In this document: piece by piece, positions 43,753-64,000 of the stretch | Layout of the letters: each line of letters begins with the position of its first letter | How positions within the stretch are numbered: position 1 is the stretch's first letter | NCBI GenBank assembly: GCA_017416535.1 | Contig: JAFQCG010000001.1 | Location: 265,013-329,012 of the forward strand | Length of the DNA stretch: 64,000 bases | Direction of reading: 5' to 3' | DNA from: Bacilli bacterium | GTDB lineage: Bacteria; Bacillota_I; Bacilli_A; RF39; UBA660 | The notes under the pieces: model-generated | What the model saw: only the letters and a program-made list of their open reading frames with translations | Database searches by the model: none | Told to the model about the DNA's origin: nothing | Translations under genes and position numbers: made by a program

Positions 43753-45465
43753 ATGCAAGGACAATATTTAATTGTTGGATCAGTTGTTATAGTTGCGCTT
43801 ATTATTGTTATGGTTATGCTTCACTTTATTAAAAAAGCAGAATTAAAGTATTATAAAGATAAAGTTAAAAATCTTGAAGTTCAAAGAAATATGGTGGCAT
43901 CAACTCCAGTTCTTTTAGAACTTTCTAAAGTTGAACCTATTATTAAGAATGACAAGATGGAAGAAAAATATAATAAATGGCAAGATAGATTTACTTATAT
44001 TAGAGAACATAGATTAACTCAAATTGATGATATGTTAATTGATTTGGATTTGTTTATGGAAAAAAGAGACTATAAGACATGTAGTCATAATATTGCGAAA
44101 ATTGAAATTGAAATTTATAAAGCAAGAGAATCTGCAGAAGCATTACTTGAAGAAATTAAAGATATTACTTTAAGTGAGGAAAAATATAGATCTATTGTGA
44201 TTAAATTAAAAACGAAATATAGAACTCTTAGTAAGGATTATCATGAGCATAAGCAAATGTATGATTCTGTTCAAGAAGCAATAGAATTACAATTAGAAAA
44301 TATTGAAAGACGTTTCTTAGACTTTGAAAAAGTTATGGAAAAGAATGAGTATAGTGAAGTAGTTCATATTGTTAAAGCACTTGATACAATGATTGAACAT
44401 ATGGATATTATTGTAAGAGAAGTTCCTGATGTTTTATTAATGGCTAATCAGGTTATTCCTAATCGTATGAGGGAAGTTGATTTAACATACAAAGATATGT
44501 TAGAACAAGGCTATCCACTTGAGTATTTAAACATTGAATACAATTTGGATGAGACTAAGAAAAATATTGAAGCTTGCTTGGATAAGGTCAAAGTATTAAA
44601 TCTTGAGGGATGTATGTTTGATCTTAAAACAATGCTTGAATATTTTGATGCATTATTTATTGACTTTGAAAAAGAAAGACTTTCTAAAAAGGTATTTGAA
44701 GAGGTTAATAAAGATTTTAAGAAGAAAATTGAAAAAACTAATAAATTAGTTAGTGATGTTTATGAACAATTGGATGATATTAAGCATATGTATGATTTAG
44801 AAGAGGCTGATGTTGAAATTATCCATGAAGTTAATAAGATTTTAGTTGTGATTAATGATGACTATAAGAAACTTACCGCTAAAGTTGAGAGTGGAGCAAC
44901 TCCTTATTCAATGCTACAACAAGAGATTGAAGAGTTAACTCTTAGACTTGATTCAATGGAAGATGAATTTGATAAAGCTTTAAAATCACTTGGAAATATG
45001 TATGATGATGAAGTAAGAGCAAGGGAACAATTAGAGGAAATTCAGGAATTTTTAAAACAATGTAAAAGTAAAATGCGCGCTTATAAGTTGCCAGTTATTA
45101 CTGATAATTATTTTGTGCAATTAGCAGAGGCTAATGAGGCGATTGTGGAAGTTATTAAAGAACTTGAACAAAAACCTATTGTAATTAAGACTTTAAATAC
45201 TAGAGTAGATACTGCAAGAGATTTAGTTTTAAAATTGTATAATACAACAAATGAAATGATAAAAACTGCACAACTTGCGGAAATGTCTATTGTTTATGGT
45301 AATAGATATAGAGCACATTATGCTGAGGTTGATAAAGGGTTATTTGATGCAGAAATTGAATTTTTTAAAGGAAATTATAAGGAAGCACTCGATATTTCAA
45401 TTAAGGCAACATCTATTGTAGATGAAGATATTTATAAAAAGTTATTACATGTATATGAAAAGTAG
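43753..45465 (+). CDS. ezrA: Septation ring regulator EzrA
   Basis: The 570-residue protein has a short outer N-terminus, one membrane segment (about 6-26) and a long cytoplasmic spectrin-like coiled-coil region. NKWQDRFTYIREHRLTQIDDMLIDLD and the C-terminal AEMSIVYGNRYRAHYAEVD block (both cited by their key words only) are EzrA-specific. EzrA limits FtsZ ring formation to mid-cell in Bacilli. Length is close to that of Bacillus EzrA (about 560). Its gene faces away from rpsD. Confidence 0.93.
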   Translation: MQGQYLIVGSVVIVALIIVMVMLHFIKKAELKYYKDKVKNLEVQRNMVASTPVLLELSKVEPIIKNDKMEEKYNKWQDRFTYIREHRLTQIDDMLIDLDLFMEKRDYKTCSHNIAKIEIEIYKARESAEALLEEIKDITLSEEKYRSIVIKLKTKYRTLSKDYHEHKQMYDSVQEAIELQLENIERRFLDFEKVMEKNEYSEVVHIVKALDTMIEHMDIIVREVPDVLLMANQVIPNRMREVDLTYKDMLEQGYPLEYLNIEYNLDETKKNIEACLDKVKVLNLEGCMFDLKTMLEYFDALFIDFEKERLSKKVFEEVNKDFKKKIEKTNKLVSDVYEQLDDIKHMYDLEEADVEIIHEVNKILVVINDDYKKLTAKVESGATPYSMLQQEIEELTLRLDSMEDEFDKALKSLGNMYDDEVRAREQLEEIQEFLKQCKSKMRAYKLPVITDNYFVQLAEANEAIVEVIKELEQKPIVIKTLNTRVDTARDLVLKLYNTTNEMIKTAQLAEMSIVYGNRYRAHYAEVDKGLFDAEIEFFKGNYKEALDISIKATSIVDEDIYKKLLHVYEK

Positions 45466-45543: not shown

Positions 45544-50862
<5,319 letters not shown>

Positions 50863-50865
50863 TGA

Positions 50866-53272
<2,407 letters not shown>

Positions 53273-53286
53273 GAGGTGAATTTTTT

Positions 53287-54975
53287 ATGGAACGAGATTA
53301 CGTTGATAAACAAGTCGATGCGAAGATTTTGTCTATTAATAATAATGAAAACATCTATGATGTTGGAACTGTTATTAATGTTAAAGACTTTATTGTTGAA
53401 GTAGCCGGTATGGTTGATGTAATGTTCTATGAAAAGATTAATATTGCTAATAAAGCATTTGGTTATGTTATAGCTATTAATGAAAGTACTATTAATGTAG
53501 CAATATTAAAGATTGATTCTCCTATTAATGTAGGCGATATGGCGTATTCAACAAATACGTTATACCAAGGTTCTTTCTCTAAGTCTTCTATGGGAAGAAT
53601 TATTGATATATTTGGTGAAGACAAGATTAGTTCAAAGAAGTTTAGTGATTTAATAGATATTCCGATTGAAAGAAAAACTATTCCTATTATGGATAGAACA
53701 GCAGTTAATAGACCATTACTTACTGGTATTGGTGGTATTGATTTAATGTATCCAATTGGTAAAGGACAAAGACAATTAATTATTGGTGATAAGAGAACTG
53801 GTAAGACACAAATAGGATTAGATGCTATTGTAAATCAAAAAGATAAGAACGTTTTATGTTTTTATGTAGCTATTGGTAAGACTAAGAAGGAAGTTAAAAA
53901 TATTTATTCTGAATTAGCTAAGAGAGGTGCTTTAGCTTATACAACTATTATTACAGCATTTAATGATGAGTTACCTCCAGTAATATCACTTATTCCATAT
54001 TTTGCTTTAAGTGTTGCGGAAGATTATATGATGGAAGGTTATGATATATTAGTTGTTATTGATGATTTAAAAAGACATGCAGAAGCATATCGTGAAATTA
54101 GTTTGATTTCTGGTAAAACTCCAGGTAGAGATGCTTATCCTGCAGATATTTTCTATACTCATTCAAGATTACTTGAAAAAGGATGTCAACATAAGAATGG
54201 TGGATCTATTACAATTTTACCTATTGTTGAAACTAAGGGTGGAGATATTACAGATTATATTTCTACAAATATTATTTCGATTACAGATGGACAAATAGTT
54301 TTATCTGCGAAGAGCTTCCAAAAGGGTGATAAACCTGCTATTGATTATGGTCTTTCAGTTTCACGTTTAGGTGGTGCTGTTCAAGAAAAAGATATGAAAG
54401 CAGTAGGTTCAGTTATTCGCCGTAAGTTATTAAGTTATTTGGAAACAAGACATGTATATGAACTTGTTAATACTGATGAAATGAGTATTGAACTTAAAAA
54501 TCAATTTATGGAAGGTAAATTTATATTGGATAATTTAAATCAATATAAATTTTCTGCTAAGACTCCAAATGAAATAATTGCTTCATTTAGTGAGTTATTA
54601 AATGATGAAAGTTCTCAAGTAAAAAATGTTATTCAAAATACAAATGTGACAGTTCAAGAAGCACCACAAGCACAAAATATTGTTGTGGAAAATTATAATC
54701 AAAGTGTACAACAAACAAGTATTCCGCAAGTTTCTGTGGAAAATAACATTCCAGCAGCAACAAATATTGTGGAAAACAATGTACCAGTTATAAATCAAGC
54801 TCCACAAGTTGTGGAAAGTACTCCAATTGTAGTTAATACTCCACAAATGTCTGTGGAAAGTGCCCCTGTTATAACAGAAAATGATCCAGTTATGGTACAG
54901 GCAGTTCCTGAAATAGTGGAAACTTTAGAAAATACACAGATTCTTGAGTTACCTGTAGAAGAAGAGGTTTTATAA
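53287..54975 (+). CDS. F1-type ATPase alpha subunit-like protein with long C-terminal tail
   Basis: The 562-residue protein has the alpha layout. The nucleotide-binding domain has GDKRTGKT (167-174) where E. coli has GDRQTGKT. The arginine finger is kept (R360 in LSVSRLGG). Up to about residue 447 it is a full alpha subunit. The last 115 residues are a low-complexity tail rich in Val, Pro, Gln, Asn and Glu with repeated VEN/VES words (about 10-20 residues apart), absent from ordinary alpha subunits. It begins 14 bases after the b-delta gene with AGGAGGTG. Confidence 0.9.
   Translation: MERDYVDKQVDAKILSINNNENIYDVGTVINVKDFIVEVAGMVDVMFYEKINIANKAFGYVIAINESTINVAILKIDSPINVGDMAYSTNTLYQGSFSKSSMGRIIDIFGEDKISSKKFSDLIDIPIERKTIPIMDRTAVNRPLLTGIGGIDLMYPIGKGQRQLIIGDKRTGKTQIGLDAIVNQKDKNVLCFYVAIGKTKKEVKNIYSELAKRGALAYTTIITAFNDELPPVISLIPYFALSVAEDYMMEGYDILVVIDDLKRHAEAYREISLISGKTPGRDAYPADIFYTHSRLLEKGCQHKNGGSITILPIVETKGGDITDYISTNIISITDGQIVLSAKSFQKGDKPAIDYGLSVSRLGGAVQEKDMKAVGSVIRRKLLSYLETRHVYELVNTDEMSIELKNQFMEGKFILDNLNQYKFSAKTPNEIIASFSELLNDESSQVKNVIQNTNVTVQEAPQAQNIVVENYNQSVQQTSIPQVSVENNIPAATNIVENNVPVINQAPQVVESTPIVVNTPQMSVESAPVITENDPVMVQAVPEIVETLENTQILELPVEEEVL
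54650..54960 (+). repeat. Degenerate repeats encoding the alpha-like tail
   Basis: The word TGTGGAAA (encoding VEN/VES) recurs about five times, each followed by a P/V/I/N-rich stretch. Confidence 0.6.
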
Positions 54976-54976
54976 T

Positions 54977-58599
<3,623 letters not shown>

Positions 58600-58618
58600 A
58601 ATATTAGGAGGTGTGTTT

Positions 58619-61600
58619 ATGAAAAAACGATATTATATAGCAATAGCAATTCTATTAGTTATATGTAGTTTGTTGTTCCTTTTAACACACTTTTCTAATG
58701 CAACAATATTATCTACAGAAGGATATTTTGTTACTGGAGATAAGATTGAGGAAGTTTTACTTTCTGATAAAAAGGTATTAAAAAGTAAAAATGTAAAACT
58801 TGAAAAAGTTACTTATGAAGATAAATTTTATAATAATTTAGGAAATTTATATGTAGGTGAAGAAGAAAAAACTGAAGTTAATAGTAATTATCCAATTTAT
58901 TCTAATGAGGGAGTTGCGATTGTTAATATTAATGAGAAGTCTAAATTAATTAATGATAGGTTTGAATATTTTGAAAGTTATGAGAATTTTACTTTAACTG
59001 GTGGGAAGTTATATAACTATGGTGATTTAGAGCAAGCTGATTATGAAAATTATATTTTACTTCAATTACCTAATGGTATTTATGTTAACTTGGATAAGTT
59101 AGTTATTAAGACTAATACTAGAGAAATTGAAGTGGCAGTTAATAGTATTATTTATTTTGATGGTAATTTCTTAAGATATTTTGCTTATAGTAATGATGGT
59201 AAACTTGTTTATCATATTGAAGAAGGAATAGATTTATATAATGAAGTAACTATTGGAGATGCTACGTTTATATATAAAGATTTACTTCAAACTATTGGAA
59301 AAATAGATAAAGATGAAGAAAAAGAAGAAGAAATTACTCCTGGTGATGATAAGGAAGATGATAAAGATAATAATGGTTCAAATATTGGTAGTGGAGATAA
59401 TAAACCAGTTAAATACGTAAAACCAAAGGTTAGTGCAGATAAATTTGATGCGAATGTTTATTCTGCAAGTTCAAAATTAAATATTTCGGATCCAGCTGGA
59501 GTTATTATTGGAGGCGTTAATTTTGAATTTAAAATTGGAGAAAAGATTTTCTTAAGAAAGACTTATGTATCTTCTGGGGATTTTAAAATTATTGGTTTAG
59601 TGCCTAATACAGAATTTACTATAATAGGTAGTTATAAGTATTTTAATGAGAAAAATAAGAAGATGGAATATACTTTCTTTGAACAAAAAATTAAGACTGG
59701 TGATACAAAGAATTTACCAGAGATTAAATTAGGGTTCGAGAATGGACCAGTATATTCTAATAAGTTACATGTTAATAATATTAGAATATTATCTAATTTA
59801 GATAATGATGCGATTAATGGTGTTAGTAAAGCTGTTATTTATATTAATGGTGATATGTATAGTATTCCAAGAGCAATGCTTGGAGAAGTTTTAGCTGGAA
59901 ATAATGGGGAATATACAAGTCCACCTAAGATTCCAAGTAACACTGTATTAAATTATGAAATTAAATTTTTAGATGCATTTGATAATGAAATAAAAGTTAC
60001 TAATAATAAAGGTAAAAGTAGAACATCAAAAAAAGAACCAAGTGTTTCTTTAGAACAAACTACTAATACAGTTACATCAACATACTTTGATATTGAACTT
60101 AAGAATGTTGATGAAGTTAATATTAATAATTATAGATATGTTATTTATGATAGTACTAATGCAGTTATAGTAAGTCATAAATTAAATGATAATGAAGTAA
60201 AACAAAATATTGAATTAAATAATTTAGATCCTAACACAACTTATGTTATTAAGATATTAGGTGATTATGATATTGAAGATGGAAATGGTATAAATAAAAA
60301 TGCTGTTTTAGGGGAAACTAAGTTTACTACTAAACCACTATCATCTTTAGGATATGTGAGAGTAAAATCAGGAACGGTTGATGTTACGAGTGATTCTGCT
60401 AAGTTAGAATCATATATAGATATAAGTGCTGTTTCTGATCAATTAATGGACTTACTTAATACTTTTAAAATGACAATTACTGATGATGAAGGTAATTTAA
60501 TATATGAAAGAGAATTTAATTCAAATAATATTCAAGAGATTAAAGGGGGAGAAAAATTTACTGATGAAATAGTAGATTTAGTATCTGGAACTGAATATTA
60601 TGTTACTTTTACAGCGACAGCTAAACAAGGAAAGGTTGTTGAAGAGATACCGGTTACTTGTGGTTTTAAGAGTTTTACTATTAATAAGACTCCAGCGCAA
60701 GTTAATATTACAAATAAATTTGTTACTGGTAGTATGATTGACTTTGATGTTAGAATTGATGATTTAGAAGGTACTATCTTAAGTAATAGAGTAATTCTAG
60801 AAATTAGAGATAATACTGATAAGTTGGTTTCTACTGAATACTTAGATATAAATTCCGATTATAAGAGATTAACTTATACTAAATTATTAGAAAATGTTGA
60901 TTATAAATTTACTTATAAAGTAGAAGAATATAATGAAGGTTATGATAATAGAACTTTCCAAAGTGATTATACAATCTTTGAAGAAATAATTAATACTACA
61001 CCTGGTATTAGAGGTAATATTGAATTAAATAGTTTACTTAGACAAATTGAGAGTGCTAATTTGTTTAATATTGAAGATTTGACAAGAATGAGACTTCAAG
61101 GTAATACTGGATATAAAGATTATGATATGAAAAATAATGTCATGACTATTGGAGCTAAAGGTGGATATGTAAATTATTCATACTATGTACCGGAAGTGGC
61201 TAGTTCATCAGTTGAAGTTAGTTTTTATGCTAAATACGCTAAGGATACTCCTAATAAAGCTCCTGTATATCTTTCTAAGGGAAGAGGAGATACTAGAAGT
61301 TTCTTGTTAGATTTAACAGATGAATATAAAAAATATACTTATGTTTTTAAGACAACAAGTGATTATATAGGTTTTGTAATTGTTGAGAAGTCTGGTACAA
61401 ACACAAGAACAAATGTTGATATTAAGGATTTAACGATTATTAATACGGCATCTGATGTTACAGAAACTGATATTACAAAATCTTATCATAAGTCAGGATT
61501 TAAATTTACTGATACTGTTATGGCAGCAGGGGATGAGAGTATGCCTACACATGATGGTTCATCAACAATGGTAGGTAATACAGGTAATGGTTATGCGAAG

Positions 61601-64000
61601 ATTACAAATTTAGTTACAAAGGCAGAAAAAACATTTGAATATACTGGTAATTATCAATCTTATAGTGTTACACCAGGAAGATATAAAATTGAGTTATGGG
61701 GTGCTCAAGGTGGTAGTAATTTTTATAATGGTGGAACAGAATATTTTGCTGGTGGTAAAGGAGCTTATACTTCTGGTAACATCACATTTACAAGTAATGC
61801 TGAACTTTACTTTTATGTAGGTGGTAAAGGTGAGACAAGTAATAAATCATTAAAAAAGACTGCTGGTGGTTATAATGGTGGAGGTTCTGGAGACCATGAT
61901 AATCAAGATAATGAAGTTGATGGAGGTGGAGGAGGAGCCACTGACGTTAGATTGGAATCTGGTGCTTGGAATAATTTAAAATCTTTACAATCAAGAATTA
62001 TGGTAGCTGCTGGAGGCGGTGGTGGTTCTGATCATACACTTGGAGGACCTGCTGGAGGTATAACTAGTAAAACTGTTCAGCACAGTACTGGAGCATCTCA
62101 ATATACTGGTTATGCATTTGGTTATGGACAAGATGGAGTTAGAGTTAGAAGTAATTCTCCTGTTGCCGGAGGTGGAGGAGGATACTTTGGTGGATATGCA
62201 ATAGATAATGGTTCAAATTATTATAATCCTGGTGCAGGAGGGTCTTCTTATATTTCTGGACATAAAGGATGCGTTGCTTATCATCTTTCTTCGCAAGCTT
62301 CAGGGGATTATATTACATATAAAGAAAAAGATATGTATATGGGTGAACTAAGTATAGATTTAGTTGATGCTAGAGAAGAAATAACTACTAATGATTTCTA
62401 CTTACGTATTTATAGTGGTGGTCAATTAGTTGAGAATAAGCAATTTGAATTTGATTCTGATGAATTAGTAGATTATGTTACAAATTATGAATTTGTAAAA
62501 AATAAAACTTATGCAATTTACTTATCTGTTAAAATTAGAGATCGTTTTTATGATATTTCTTCAGTAACATTTGATACATCTGCAGAAATTCGTTCTATAA
62601 GAAATGTTACACAATTTGTAAATATGCATACTAATGCTAAATATATTGTTTTAAATGATTTAGACTTTACTAAAAGTAGTTCTAATTTTGGTAGTACATT
62701 CTATGGTGAAATTGATTTCCAAGGTCATAAAGTTAAATCAAATGTTGTAAGTAGAGGAAATTATATATTATATAGTTTAGGTAGTGGTGGTCTTATTGAA
62801 AATCTTGTGTTAGATTATACAATTGATAATACATCACCTAGATCTTCTTTTTATGGTTTTGCACAATATAATTATGGTACTTTTGATAATCTTATGATTA
62901 ATGTTAATGAGGGTGCTACTCAAAATGGAAACTATGTATTTACAATGGGATTCTATGTTAACTATGGTAAGATTAGAAACTTTGTTATTAATAGTGCAGG
63001 AGCAATAAGTGCTCGTTCGGCAACTGGTATTCTTATGTGGAGTAATGAGGGTGTTGTTGAAAATGGTTATGTTTATGGACAAAATATGAATGGTAACTTT
63101 GAAAGTTATGATAGAGATAATAAAGATATGGCTCCTATTGCAGGACAACTTACTACAAATGGTGTTATTAGAAATGTGTTCTCATTAATTTCTGTTAATA
63201 AAGATACTAATCCTGATTTAACAACTGAAAAAGCTGTTGGTAATATTGTTGGATATGCAGCAACAGGTAGAGTTGAAAATTCTTATTCGGTTGAAGATCC
63301 TAATGTTGAAAATTCAAAATTTACTAGTCAAGATCCTAACTTTGGTAGAGGACATGCTAATGCTACAGTTAAGAATTTGTACTATGTGTCTGAAACAACT
63401 TATTTAGGTAATAAGAGTTCTATGATGTCTAAGTTAGCATTATGGGATGAAACATTACAAAAGAAAATATTAAATACAAGTAATGGTTGGGATGTTACTA
63501 ATCTTGTTTCGTTAGGATATTATCCACAAGTAAAAATGAATGATTGTATGCCTAGACAAGAATTAATTTCTTTACCAAAAATTACTGATGGTGATTTAGT
63601 TGATGTTACTTCTGCTGAACAAATAGAAGTAGGTGGGGATTATGCAAAAGTAGAAATACATTTTAATAATCCTGCTGGTGAAACTATTACTGATATTGGT
63701 ATTAGAGATATTGGTACTGTGGAAATTCTTTCACAAGAAAATATGTATGGAAAATCTGTTGTGGTTGCAAAACTAAGTTCGCCAATTTCTTATAAATCAA
63801 AGTATTATATTAGAAATATTAAGATTACTGGTGTAATGGGATATACATATGAAAAGAATTATACAGACTTAGAAAGACCAATTGATGTAGATTTATATTA
63901 TCCAATTAAGACTTTAAATGATTGGAAGGAATTAGTAAGTAAACCAACTCAAAATTATATGTTAATGAACGATTTGGATTTTAAAAATGAAACTATTTCT
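58619..64000 (+). CDS. Giant surface protein, cut by the window end (glycine-rich ALK/LTK-type and GLUG-like domains)
   Basis: The frame is open over 1794 codons with no stop. Order: membrane helix (about 5-25), outer domain shared with siblings (to about 230), acidic linker (EEKEEEITPGDDKEDDK), FN3-like units (about 280-790), a carbohydrate-binding-like sandwich (about 830-950), a glycine-rich domain of ALK/LTK receptor type (about 1005-1225, with FEYTGNYQSYSV, IELWGAQGG and VAAGGGGGS) and a GLUG-like beta-helix (about 1320 onward, with YIVLNDLDFTKSS, IDFQGHKVKS and GLIENLVLDYTI). GLUG-like regions of this type precede the catalytic domain in M26 IgA1 proteases, but the end is outside the window. 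AGGAGGTG at 58606-58613 supports the start. Confidence 0.85.
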   Translation, partial: MKKRYYIAIAILLVICSLLFLLTHFSNATILSTEGYFVTGDKIEEVLLSDKKVLKSKNVKLEKVTYEDKFYNNLGNLYVGEEEKTEVNSNYPIYSNEGVAIVNINEKSKLINDRFEYFESYENFTLTGGKLYNYGDLEQADYENYILLQLPNGIYVNLDKLVIKTNTREIEVAVNSIIYFDGNFLRYFAYSNDGKLVYHIEEGIDLYNEVTIGDATFIYKDLLQTIGKIDKDEEKEEEITPGDDKEDDKDNNGSNIGSGDNKPVKYVKPKVSADKFDANVYSASSKLNISDPAGVIIGGVNFEFKIGEKIFLRKTYVSSGDFKIIGLVPNTEFTIIGSYKYFNEKNKKMEYTFFEQKIKTGDTKNLPEIKLGFENGPVYSNKLHVNNIRILSNLDNDAINGVSKAVIYINGDMYSIPRAMLGEVLAGNNGEYTSPPKIPSNTVLNYEIKFLDAFDNEIKVTNNKGKSRTSKKEPSVSLEQTTNTVTSTYFDIELKNVDEVNINNYRYVIYDSTNAVIVSHKLNDNEVKQNIELNNLDPNTTYVIKILGDYDIEDGNGINKNAVLGETKFTTKPLSSLGYVRVKSGTVDVTSDSAKLESYIDISAVSDQLMDLLNTFKMTITDDEGNLIYEREFNSNNIQEIKGGEKFTDEIVDLVSGTEYYVTFTATAKQGKVVEEIPVTCGFKSFTINKTPAQVNITNKFVTGSMIDFDVRIDDLEGTILSNRVILEIRDNTDKLVSTEYLDINSDYKRLTYTKLLENVDYKFTYKVEEYNEGYDNRTFQSDYTIFEEIINTTPGIRGNIELNSLLRQIESANLFNIEDLTRMRLQGNTGYKDYDMKNNVMTIGAKGGYVNYSYYVPEVASSSVEVSFYAKYAKDTPNKAPVYLSKGRGDTRSFLLDLTDEYKKYTYVFKTTSDYIGFVIVEKSGTNTRTNVDIKDLTIINTASDVTETDITKSYHKSGFKFTDTVMAAGDESMPTHDGSSTMVGNTGNGYAKITNLVTKAEKTFEYTGNYQSYSVTPGRYKIELWGAQGGSNFYNGGTEYFAGGKGAYTSGNITFTSNAELYFYVGGKGETSNKSLKKTAGGYNGGGSGDHDNQDNEVDGGGGGATDVRLESGAWNNLKSLQSRIMVAAGGGGGSDHTLGGPAGGITSKTVQHSTGASQYTGYAFGYGQDGVRVRSNSPVAGGGGGYFGGYAIDNGSNYYNPGAGGSSYISGHKGCVAYHLSSQASGDYITYKEKDMYMGELSIDLVDAREEITTNDFYLRIYSGGQLVENKQFEFDSDELVDYVTNYEFVKNKTYAIYLSVKIRDRFYDISSVTFDTSAEIRSIRNVTQFVNMHTNAKYIVLNDLDFTKSSSNFGSTFYGEIDFQGHKVKSNVVSRGNYILYSLGSGGLIENLVLDYTIDNTSPRSSFYGFAQYNYGTFDNLMINVNEGATQNGNYVFTMGFYVNYGKIRNFVINSAGAISARSATGILMWSNEGVVENGYVYGQNMNGNFESYDRDNKDMAPIAGQLTTNGVIRNVFSLISVNKDTNPDLTTEKAVGNIVGYAATGRVENSYSVEDPNVENSKFTSQDPNFGRGHANATVKNLYYVSETTYLGNKSSMMSKLALWDETLQKKILNTSNGWDVTNLVSLGYYPQVKMNDCMPRQELISLPKITDGDLVDVTSAEQIEVGGDYAKVEIHFNNPAGETITDIGIRDIGTVEILSQENMYGKSVVVAKLSSPISYKSKYYIRNIKITGVMGYTYEKNYTDLERPIDVDLYYPIKTLNDWKELVSKPTQNYMLMNDLDFKNETIS

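Follow-up and report, generated by a model that had tools for sequence, protein, structure and literature searches.

The right-hand end of a 64,000-nucleotide stretch of a Bacilli genome (the window: positions 265013-329012 of the 894-kb contig JAFQCG010000001.1, draft genome G000, 1.5 Mb, completeness 95.6%) raises the question of what a very large surface protein does beside an F1-like ATPase, and whether it ends in a protease. An earlier note on this DNA had speculated, from the beta-helix repeats of the protein and from the mycoplasmas in which such an ATPase accompanies an antibody-binding and antibody-cleaving pair, that an IgA1-type protease might follow. The frame, 58613-64000(+), is still open at the window edge, and extension of the contig led to a stop at window position 68386; the coordinates given in the note for its domains (61630-64000) were correct, and the gene end lay outside its view. 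The product of the completed gene, here giant2, is most likely an adhesive or ligand-handling arm rather than an enzyme, and we put at about even the chance that it serves an ATP-driven envelope machine as the largest of its surface arms.

58613-68386 (58613..64000 in the window), + strand: giant2, a 3257-aa surface protein, starting at GTG 58613 or ATG 58619
58619..59320, + strand: N-terminal transmembrane (TM) helix and membrane-proximal all-beta domain of giant2, about aa 3-236 (AlphaFold, mean pLDDT 88.7; hhalign)

Both ends of giant2 carry a TM helix, at aa 9-27 and aa 3230-3248, and the N-terminal domain is followed by an acidic and Gly-Ser linker. This holds across giant2 and its homologues: each of the 20 whose C-terminus can be read has a TM helix there, in most cases trailed by a basic tail, and the N-terminal helix is present wherever the start can be read. 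At L118:12903-21334, in a metagenome-assembled genome, giant2 is split over three consecutive open reading frames (ORFs; 1621, 557 and 619 aa), by decay or assembly error.

The gene belongs to a 12-gene operon with gaps of -32 to 18 nt, in the order giant1, p459, c-like, b-delta-like, alpha, gamma, beta, epsilon-like, mem182, p242, giant2, p194. Six of these genes encode the ATPase:

52272..52517, + strand: c-like subunit, 81 aa, two TM helices, no carboxylate in the second (PF00137, E 2.1e-8; alignment)
52520..53272, + strand: b-delta-like fusion, 250 aa, TM helix at aa 4-22 and delta-like C-terminal end (read by eye, no profile match; position conserved in relatives)
53287..54975, + strand: alpha-like subunit, Walker A and Arg finger kept (PF00006, E 3.1e-71)
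54977..55753, + strand: gamma-like subunit (PF00231, E 4.8e-24)
55758..57125, + strand: beta-like catalytic subunit, 455 aa (PF00006, E 1.5e-66; motifs)
57094..57357, + strand: epsilon-like subunit, 87 aa (position and sequence; no Pfam match)

As in the canonical F1Fo ATP synthase, alpha, beta, gamma, epsilon-like, c-like and b-delta-like subunits are present and the catalytic residues are kept: Walker A and GERxRE occur in all 81 beta sequences, and Walker A and the Arg finger in all 70 alpha sequences. The differences lie in the ion path, in an alpha subunit on a long separate branch and in the surface proteins of the operon. The ion-site column of the c-like subunit holds V, I or L in 60 of 60 aligned rows (55 distinct), as against Glu in the canonical c of G067, and the sole acidic residue in the second TM helix of these rows is one Asp in L069, off the ion site. 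Subunit a (PF00119) was absent genome-wide from G000, G098, G095 and G061, and the same search found it in G067, Kineothrix and Lachnospiraceae G11. For G000 this absence is strong, not final, because the genome is a draft. The F1-like alpha/beta pair is the only such pair in G000; Kineothrix and G11 have further pairs together with subunit a, and therefore also keep a normal F1Fo. In one locus (L054:4888-9138, genome G007) the alpha-like subunit runs in frame into a very long extension, giving a 1416-aa ORF.

The remaining operon genes treated here encode membrane and surface proteins:

45550..50862, + strand: giant1, 1770 aa, one N-terminal TM helix, N-terminal domain, linker and Fn3/Ig-like repeats
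50881..52260, + strand: p459, a 459-aa single-TM surface protein, its N-terminus related to giant1
57354..57902, + strand: mem182, a 182-aa membrane protein with four TM helices
57871..58599, + strand: p242, a 242-aa single-TM protein with little beyond the common N-terminal domain

The four surface proteins (giant1, p459, p242 and giant2) each have an N-terminal TM helix. Comparison of their N-termini with hhalign, over corresponding positions, gave probabilities of 94.7% for p459-giant1, 51% for p459-giant2 (E 1.5e-4) and 54% for p242-giant1 (E 1.3e-4), as against at most 7.1% for control pairs with unrelated subunits; in the remaining pairs the match is largely confined to the TM segment or to a brief stretch. 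Judged from these alignments, one N-terminal domain is probably, if not provably, common to the four proteins. Its model in giant2 matched no convincing known fold (best Foldseek E 0.045; best VIA-align Z 2.7). The operon is bounded by thiI (69040-70245) and, on the other side, by a gene at 43753-45465 that, judged from its sequence, is EzrA-like.

How widely is this arrangement kept? A pattern-based scan with the beta subunit as query, covering one genome per species in 84,980 species, gave 190 loci with a relative, of which 80 were kept. These lie in uncultured Bacilli, in Lachnospiraceae (including the cultured Kineothrix), in other Clostridia and in one Bifidobacterium (Bifidobacterium colobi), and the gene set is widespread in gut bacteria. 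Most loci of Bacilli, Lachnospiraceae and other Clostridia keep the order from giant1 to giant2, and the Bifidobacterium keeps it for the most part. Homologues of giant2 occur in about 45 loci, and its C-terminal part was found in all 19 genomes asked. The Bifidobacterium colobi locus (L090, NZ_JAFEJU010000010.1) holds, in an actinobacterium, an operon copy with giant2 at 60% G+C (GC), a value that speaks against contamination from a low-GC Firmicute; transfer across phyla is probable. Within the family of the window, an F1-like alpha of this type was found in only seven sampled other genera. Most sampled genera of that family have no F-type alpha at E 1e-20 with the query used, and the alpha match in G067 is the canonical subunit of the F1Fo that this genome keeps. 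G099, of the same genus as G000, lacks the operon and has no PF00006 match. A literature search, in which coverage of subscription papers was limited, found no description of this gene set.

The outer part of giant2 was then resolved into the following domains:

61055..61444, + strand: jelly-roll, carbohydrate-binding-module-like domain, aa 815-944 (profile, Foldseek, VIA)
61658..62347, + strand: ALK/LTK-type glycine-rich domain, aa 1016-1245 (PF12810, ALK_LTK_GRD)
62327..62582, + strand: beta-sandwich (Ig/Fn3-like), about aa 1239-1324 (predicted strands, model residues 427-510)
62585..63553, + strand: right-handed beta-helix I, IgA1-protease N-terminal-domain type, aa 1325-1647 (VIA-align Z 24.1 to 6xja)
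63920..64000 (mostly past the window), + strand: beta-helix II with GLUG motifs, about aa 1770-2060 (PF07581 at aa 1879-1902; profile match to 3n6z)

The structural comparisons use a predicted model of aa 815-1796, built from 27 sequences with a mean pLDDT of 75.7, in which the glycine-rich part is modelled poorly. The jelly-roll, which lies outside the span of the earlier note, matched a laminarinase 16A chain by profile (E 0.0024), carbohydrate-binding module (CBM) structures by Foldseek (E 5e-4) and, in the predicted model, CBM29 with a VIA Z of 11.

Does giant2 end in a protease? The likeness to M26 IgA1 proteases held for the beta-helix and for nothing else. The predicted beta-helix I aligned with four pneumococcal IgA1-protease entries at VIA-align Z 24.1, 23.6, 23.4 and 21.5, over about 270 residues at 13% identity, and the next unrelated fold, a fucoidan lyase, reached Z 14.2. 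In the Streptococcus pneumoniae M26 enzyme (6xja, 6xjb; PMC7695701) IgA1 Fab is bound by the N-terminal domain that contains this helix, a domain also involved in active-site gating. Of the GLUG-like beta-helix in the earlier note, the helix directly after the glycine-rich domain is supported by the predicted structure. The GLUG motif itself is weak in this copy: PF07581 scores 16.9 bits in giant2 (E 0.0085, aa 1879-1902, just past the window), below the cut-off of 20.5, and matches 10 of 14 full-length homologues at E < 0.05 (best 2.2e-7). GG[hydrophobic]xG motifs recur at aa 1919-2007 and 2399-2608, mostly 27-33 aa apart. A profile built from the 14 homologues matched 3n6z, a 'putative immunoglobulin A1 protease' (2.7e-11), its assignment to beta-helix II being approximate, and the title of 3n6z may be another case of the protease name following the beta-helix.

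The catalytic part was not found. Unlike the M26 enzyme, giant2 has no catalytic domain, and its completed gene ends in a TM helix with no protease-like domain, which refutes the protease reading for giant2 itself. Pfam and NCBIfam scans of the completed protein returned no protease family, with no genome-wide M26 search made. Neither the zinc-protease motif nor the wall anchor that might have lain to the right is present: HExxH occurs in none of the 20 homologues, giant2 included, nor in the truncated L181, and LPxTG is absent from giant2, a TM helix and basic tail standing in its place. None of the 19 other homologues has a wall anchor either; LPxTG does occur in one of them, but internally (aa 2718 of 3717) and so not where an anchor would lie. 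As the missing protease we also considered a 262-aa HELEH protein (L003:10616-11404), which has a weak match to the putative metallopeptidase family DUF6782 (E 0.084). It was rejected as an operon member because its gene lies beyond thiI and because G098, of the same genus, has no ORF of that size between thiI and ackA. Giant2 also illustrates how the label 'IgA1 protease' travels with the beta-helix alone.

The ALK/LTK-type glycine-rich domain, by contrast with the protease, was borne out in full: the segment with FEYTGNYQSYSV, IELWGAQGG and polyglycine matches PF12810 at 155.5 bits, against a gathering cut-off of 24.5 (E 3.1e-45). Its likeness to the ALK/LTK proteins is the domain itself; here it is an optional part of a bacterial surface protein, with no kinase and no receptor. 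Homologues of giant2 align on either flank, most cleanly without it, and a domain-derived model matches giant2 only in G000, L066, L068, L071, L072, L075, L076 and L077. Its presence and absence require four changes on the beta-subunit tree, and the domain has therefore been gained, lost or exchanged more than once. In sequence identity, the domain is closer to L068 and L071 (57-59%) than to same-genus L066 (49%), whereas its flanks are closer to L066 (52-59%) than to L068 and L071 (41-51%); the domain has therefore probably been exchanged. At 37%, its GC exceeds that of the window (28%), a difference that glycine codons may explain. Of the 98 genera in the window's own family, 40 have matches to the domain and few have the F1-like alpha. 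A single-sequence profile search of the PDB with this domain alone gave no match. The genome encodes a second protein with such a domain (G000:C10, L009:1276-2970), with a prepilin-like N-terminus (NNKGF...), the domain and further C-terminal domains.

The parallel with mycoplasmas drawn in the earlier note stands in that the neighbouring F1-like ATPase does matter, and fails in that this ATPase is neither Type 2 nor Type 3 by the curated cut-offs. With the NCBIfam models, Type 3 alpha (MSC_0619) scored 298.2 bits against a cut-off of 520 and Type 3 beta (MSC_0618) 399.8 against 570; Type 2 alpha (MMOB1660) scored 384.2 against 600 and Type 2 beta (MMOB1670) 365.7 against 850, the operon beta covering only positions 241-682 of 705 in the last model. 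In a quick alpha tree with long branches, the 22 F1-like rows and the 12 rows of mycoplasma Type 3 fall into two separate clades (100 each), and the canonical rows group with one unassigned row; the tree is unrooted and cannot tell whether the two clades left the canonical line together.

The mycoplasma F1-like clusters have been described as lacking a, b or c homologues and as having no apparent equivalent in other bacteria (PMC3369863). In Mycoplasma mycoides MIB-MIP depends on the Type 3 ATPase for its function in antibody evasion, and force transmission across the membrane has been proposed (PMC12994834). Our operon resembles this Type 3 F1-like X0 system (PMC3369863, PMC12994834) in lacking subunit a, in its tie to surface proteins and in an apparent use of ATP outside energy conservation. 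It differs in its separate alpha clade and scores, in having c-like and b-delta-like subunits, and in its hosts, which are Firmicutes outside the mycoplasmas and the one Bifidobacterium. No operon protein has more than four TM helices, and none corresponds to the 12-TM protein of Type 3 clusters. The MIB-MIP pair was looked for by its MIP family (PF01732), which gave no match in five genomes, nor in any control, so that the search had no positive control. The Type 2 G1-ATPase, the gliding motor of Mycoplasma mobile (PMC8406192, PMC11864180), is likewise an F1-like motor, believed to set large surface proteins in motion; unlike it, the operon beta (455 aa) has no N-terminal extension. The mycoplasma analogy for the operon is therefore functional at best.

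We favour the envelope-machine reading because of the conserved gene order, the intact catalytic motifs, the ion-dead c and the missing subunit a, and because of the C-terminal TM helices of giant2 and its homologues, the common N-terminal domain, the carbohydrate-binding-like fold and the M. mycoides surface system (PMC12994834). From this anatomy and linkage we infer that the products form a complex which would rotate, transmit its movement and handle ligands as follows. ATP hydrolysis would turn gamma-epsilon and the c-ring with no ions moved, and the b-delta-like stator would hold the F1 head. The torque would be used mechanically, the ring and the four-TM mem182 cyclically shifting the membrane-proximal domains. 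Giant1 and giant2 would cross the wall on their acidic and Gly-Ser linkers and be moved relative to the cell, and their outer domains would bind glycans or other cells during the movement. Likely uses would be powered adhesion, surface movement or the release of bound ligands, as proposed for the mycoplasma F1-like ATPases.

Several points weigh against such a machine. Giant2 is missing from three close relatives (L067, L069 and L074) that retain the ATPase, p459 and p242, the last of these lying beside thiI, and loci of the L049-L053 types have a different layout, also without giant2. Coupling of the ATPase to the giants is argued from operon structure and by analogy; any contact between the ring and the common N-terminal domain, for which no known fold was matched, is conjecture; and ligand binding by the glycine-rich and beta-helix domains is putative.

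Could giant2 instead be a surface adhesin of the usual kind that happens to be encoded in the ATPase operon, with no mechanical coupling? The glycine-rich domains of this family are surface modules subject to shuffling, and the relatives that keep the ATPase and have lost giant2 would fit. We nevertheless consider this unlikely, given that the order is conserved over very wide distances, from Bacilli to Lachnospiraceae, and that the N-terminal domain of giant2 probably recurs in giant1, p459 and p242.

The ATPase could instead power the translocation or assembly of the giants, as a dedicated export machine. FliI and SctN, which are related ATPases, drive export in type III secretion; here the candidate substrates are very large and lie within the operon, and the four-TM protein could form part of a gate. 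However, the N-terminal TM helices resemble ordinary Sec signals or anchors, and a full F1 with gamma, epsilon-like, b-delta-like and c-like subunits exceeds what export ATPases use, which makes export rather unlikely too.

An ion pump, in which mem182 would replace subunit a, the ion site would be non-classical and the giants would be a wall-spanning scaffold, appears improbable to us. The c-like subunit, the b-delta-like stator and a polytopic membrane protein are all there, but no row of the c alignment has Asp or Glu at the ion site, subunit a is missing from four genomes, and among 30 sequences of mem182 no charged residue reaches 80% conservation.

Antibody handling without a protease of its own is more doubtful still. 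Here the beta-helix would bind IgA of the gut, or some other host protein, with the ATPase resetting the complex, as in the MIB-MIP proposal. This agrees with the Fab binding of the pneumococcal domain that holds such a helix (PMC7695701), with the gut or rumen samples named in many record titles of the loci, and with the need for an F1-like ATPase in antibody evasion by M. mycoides (PMC12994834). Yet beta-helices have many roles, the identity is 13%, there is no known cleavage partner, and nothing links the domain to immunoglobulin here.

Finally, an M26 protease variant, or a MIB-MIP-like antibody-cleaving pair with a terminal protease, is hardly credible: the helix at Z 24.1, the family profile reaching 3n6z and the adjacent F1-like ATPase speak for it, but the likeness stops at the beta-helix, the C-terminus is a TM anchor, neither HExxH nor a protease family was found, and the five genomes gave no MIP-family match (in a search with no positive control).

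We tentatively propose, with somewhat less confidence than in the role of giant2 as a surface arm, that the operon represents a further lineage of F-type ATPases, known here from gut Firmicutes and one Bifidobacterium, in which the ion site and subunit a were lost and rotation became purely mechanical, serving giant wall-spanning proteins. If true, this would be a rotary motor of the envelope that depends on neither flagella nor pili nor ion gradients. The operon is a version separate from that of the mycoplasmas, with a recognisable ion-dead c and a stator, and it occurs in the cultured Kineothrix alysoides, so that the role of a rotary-type ATPase without ions would be directly testable.

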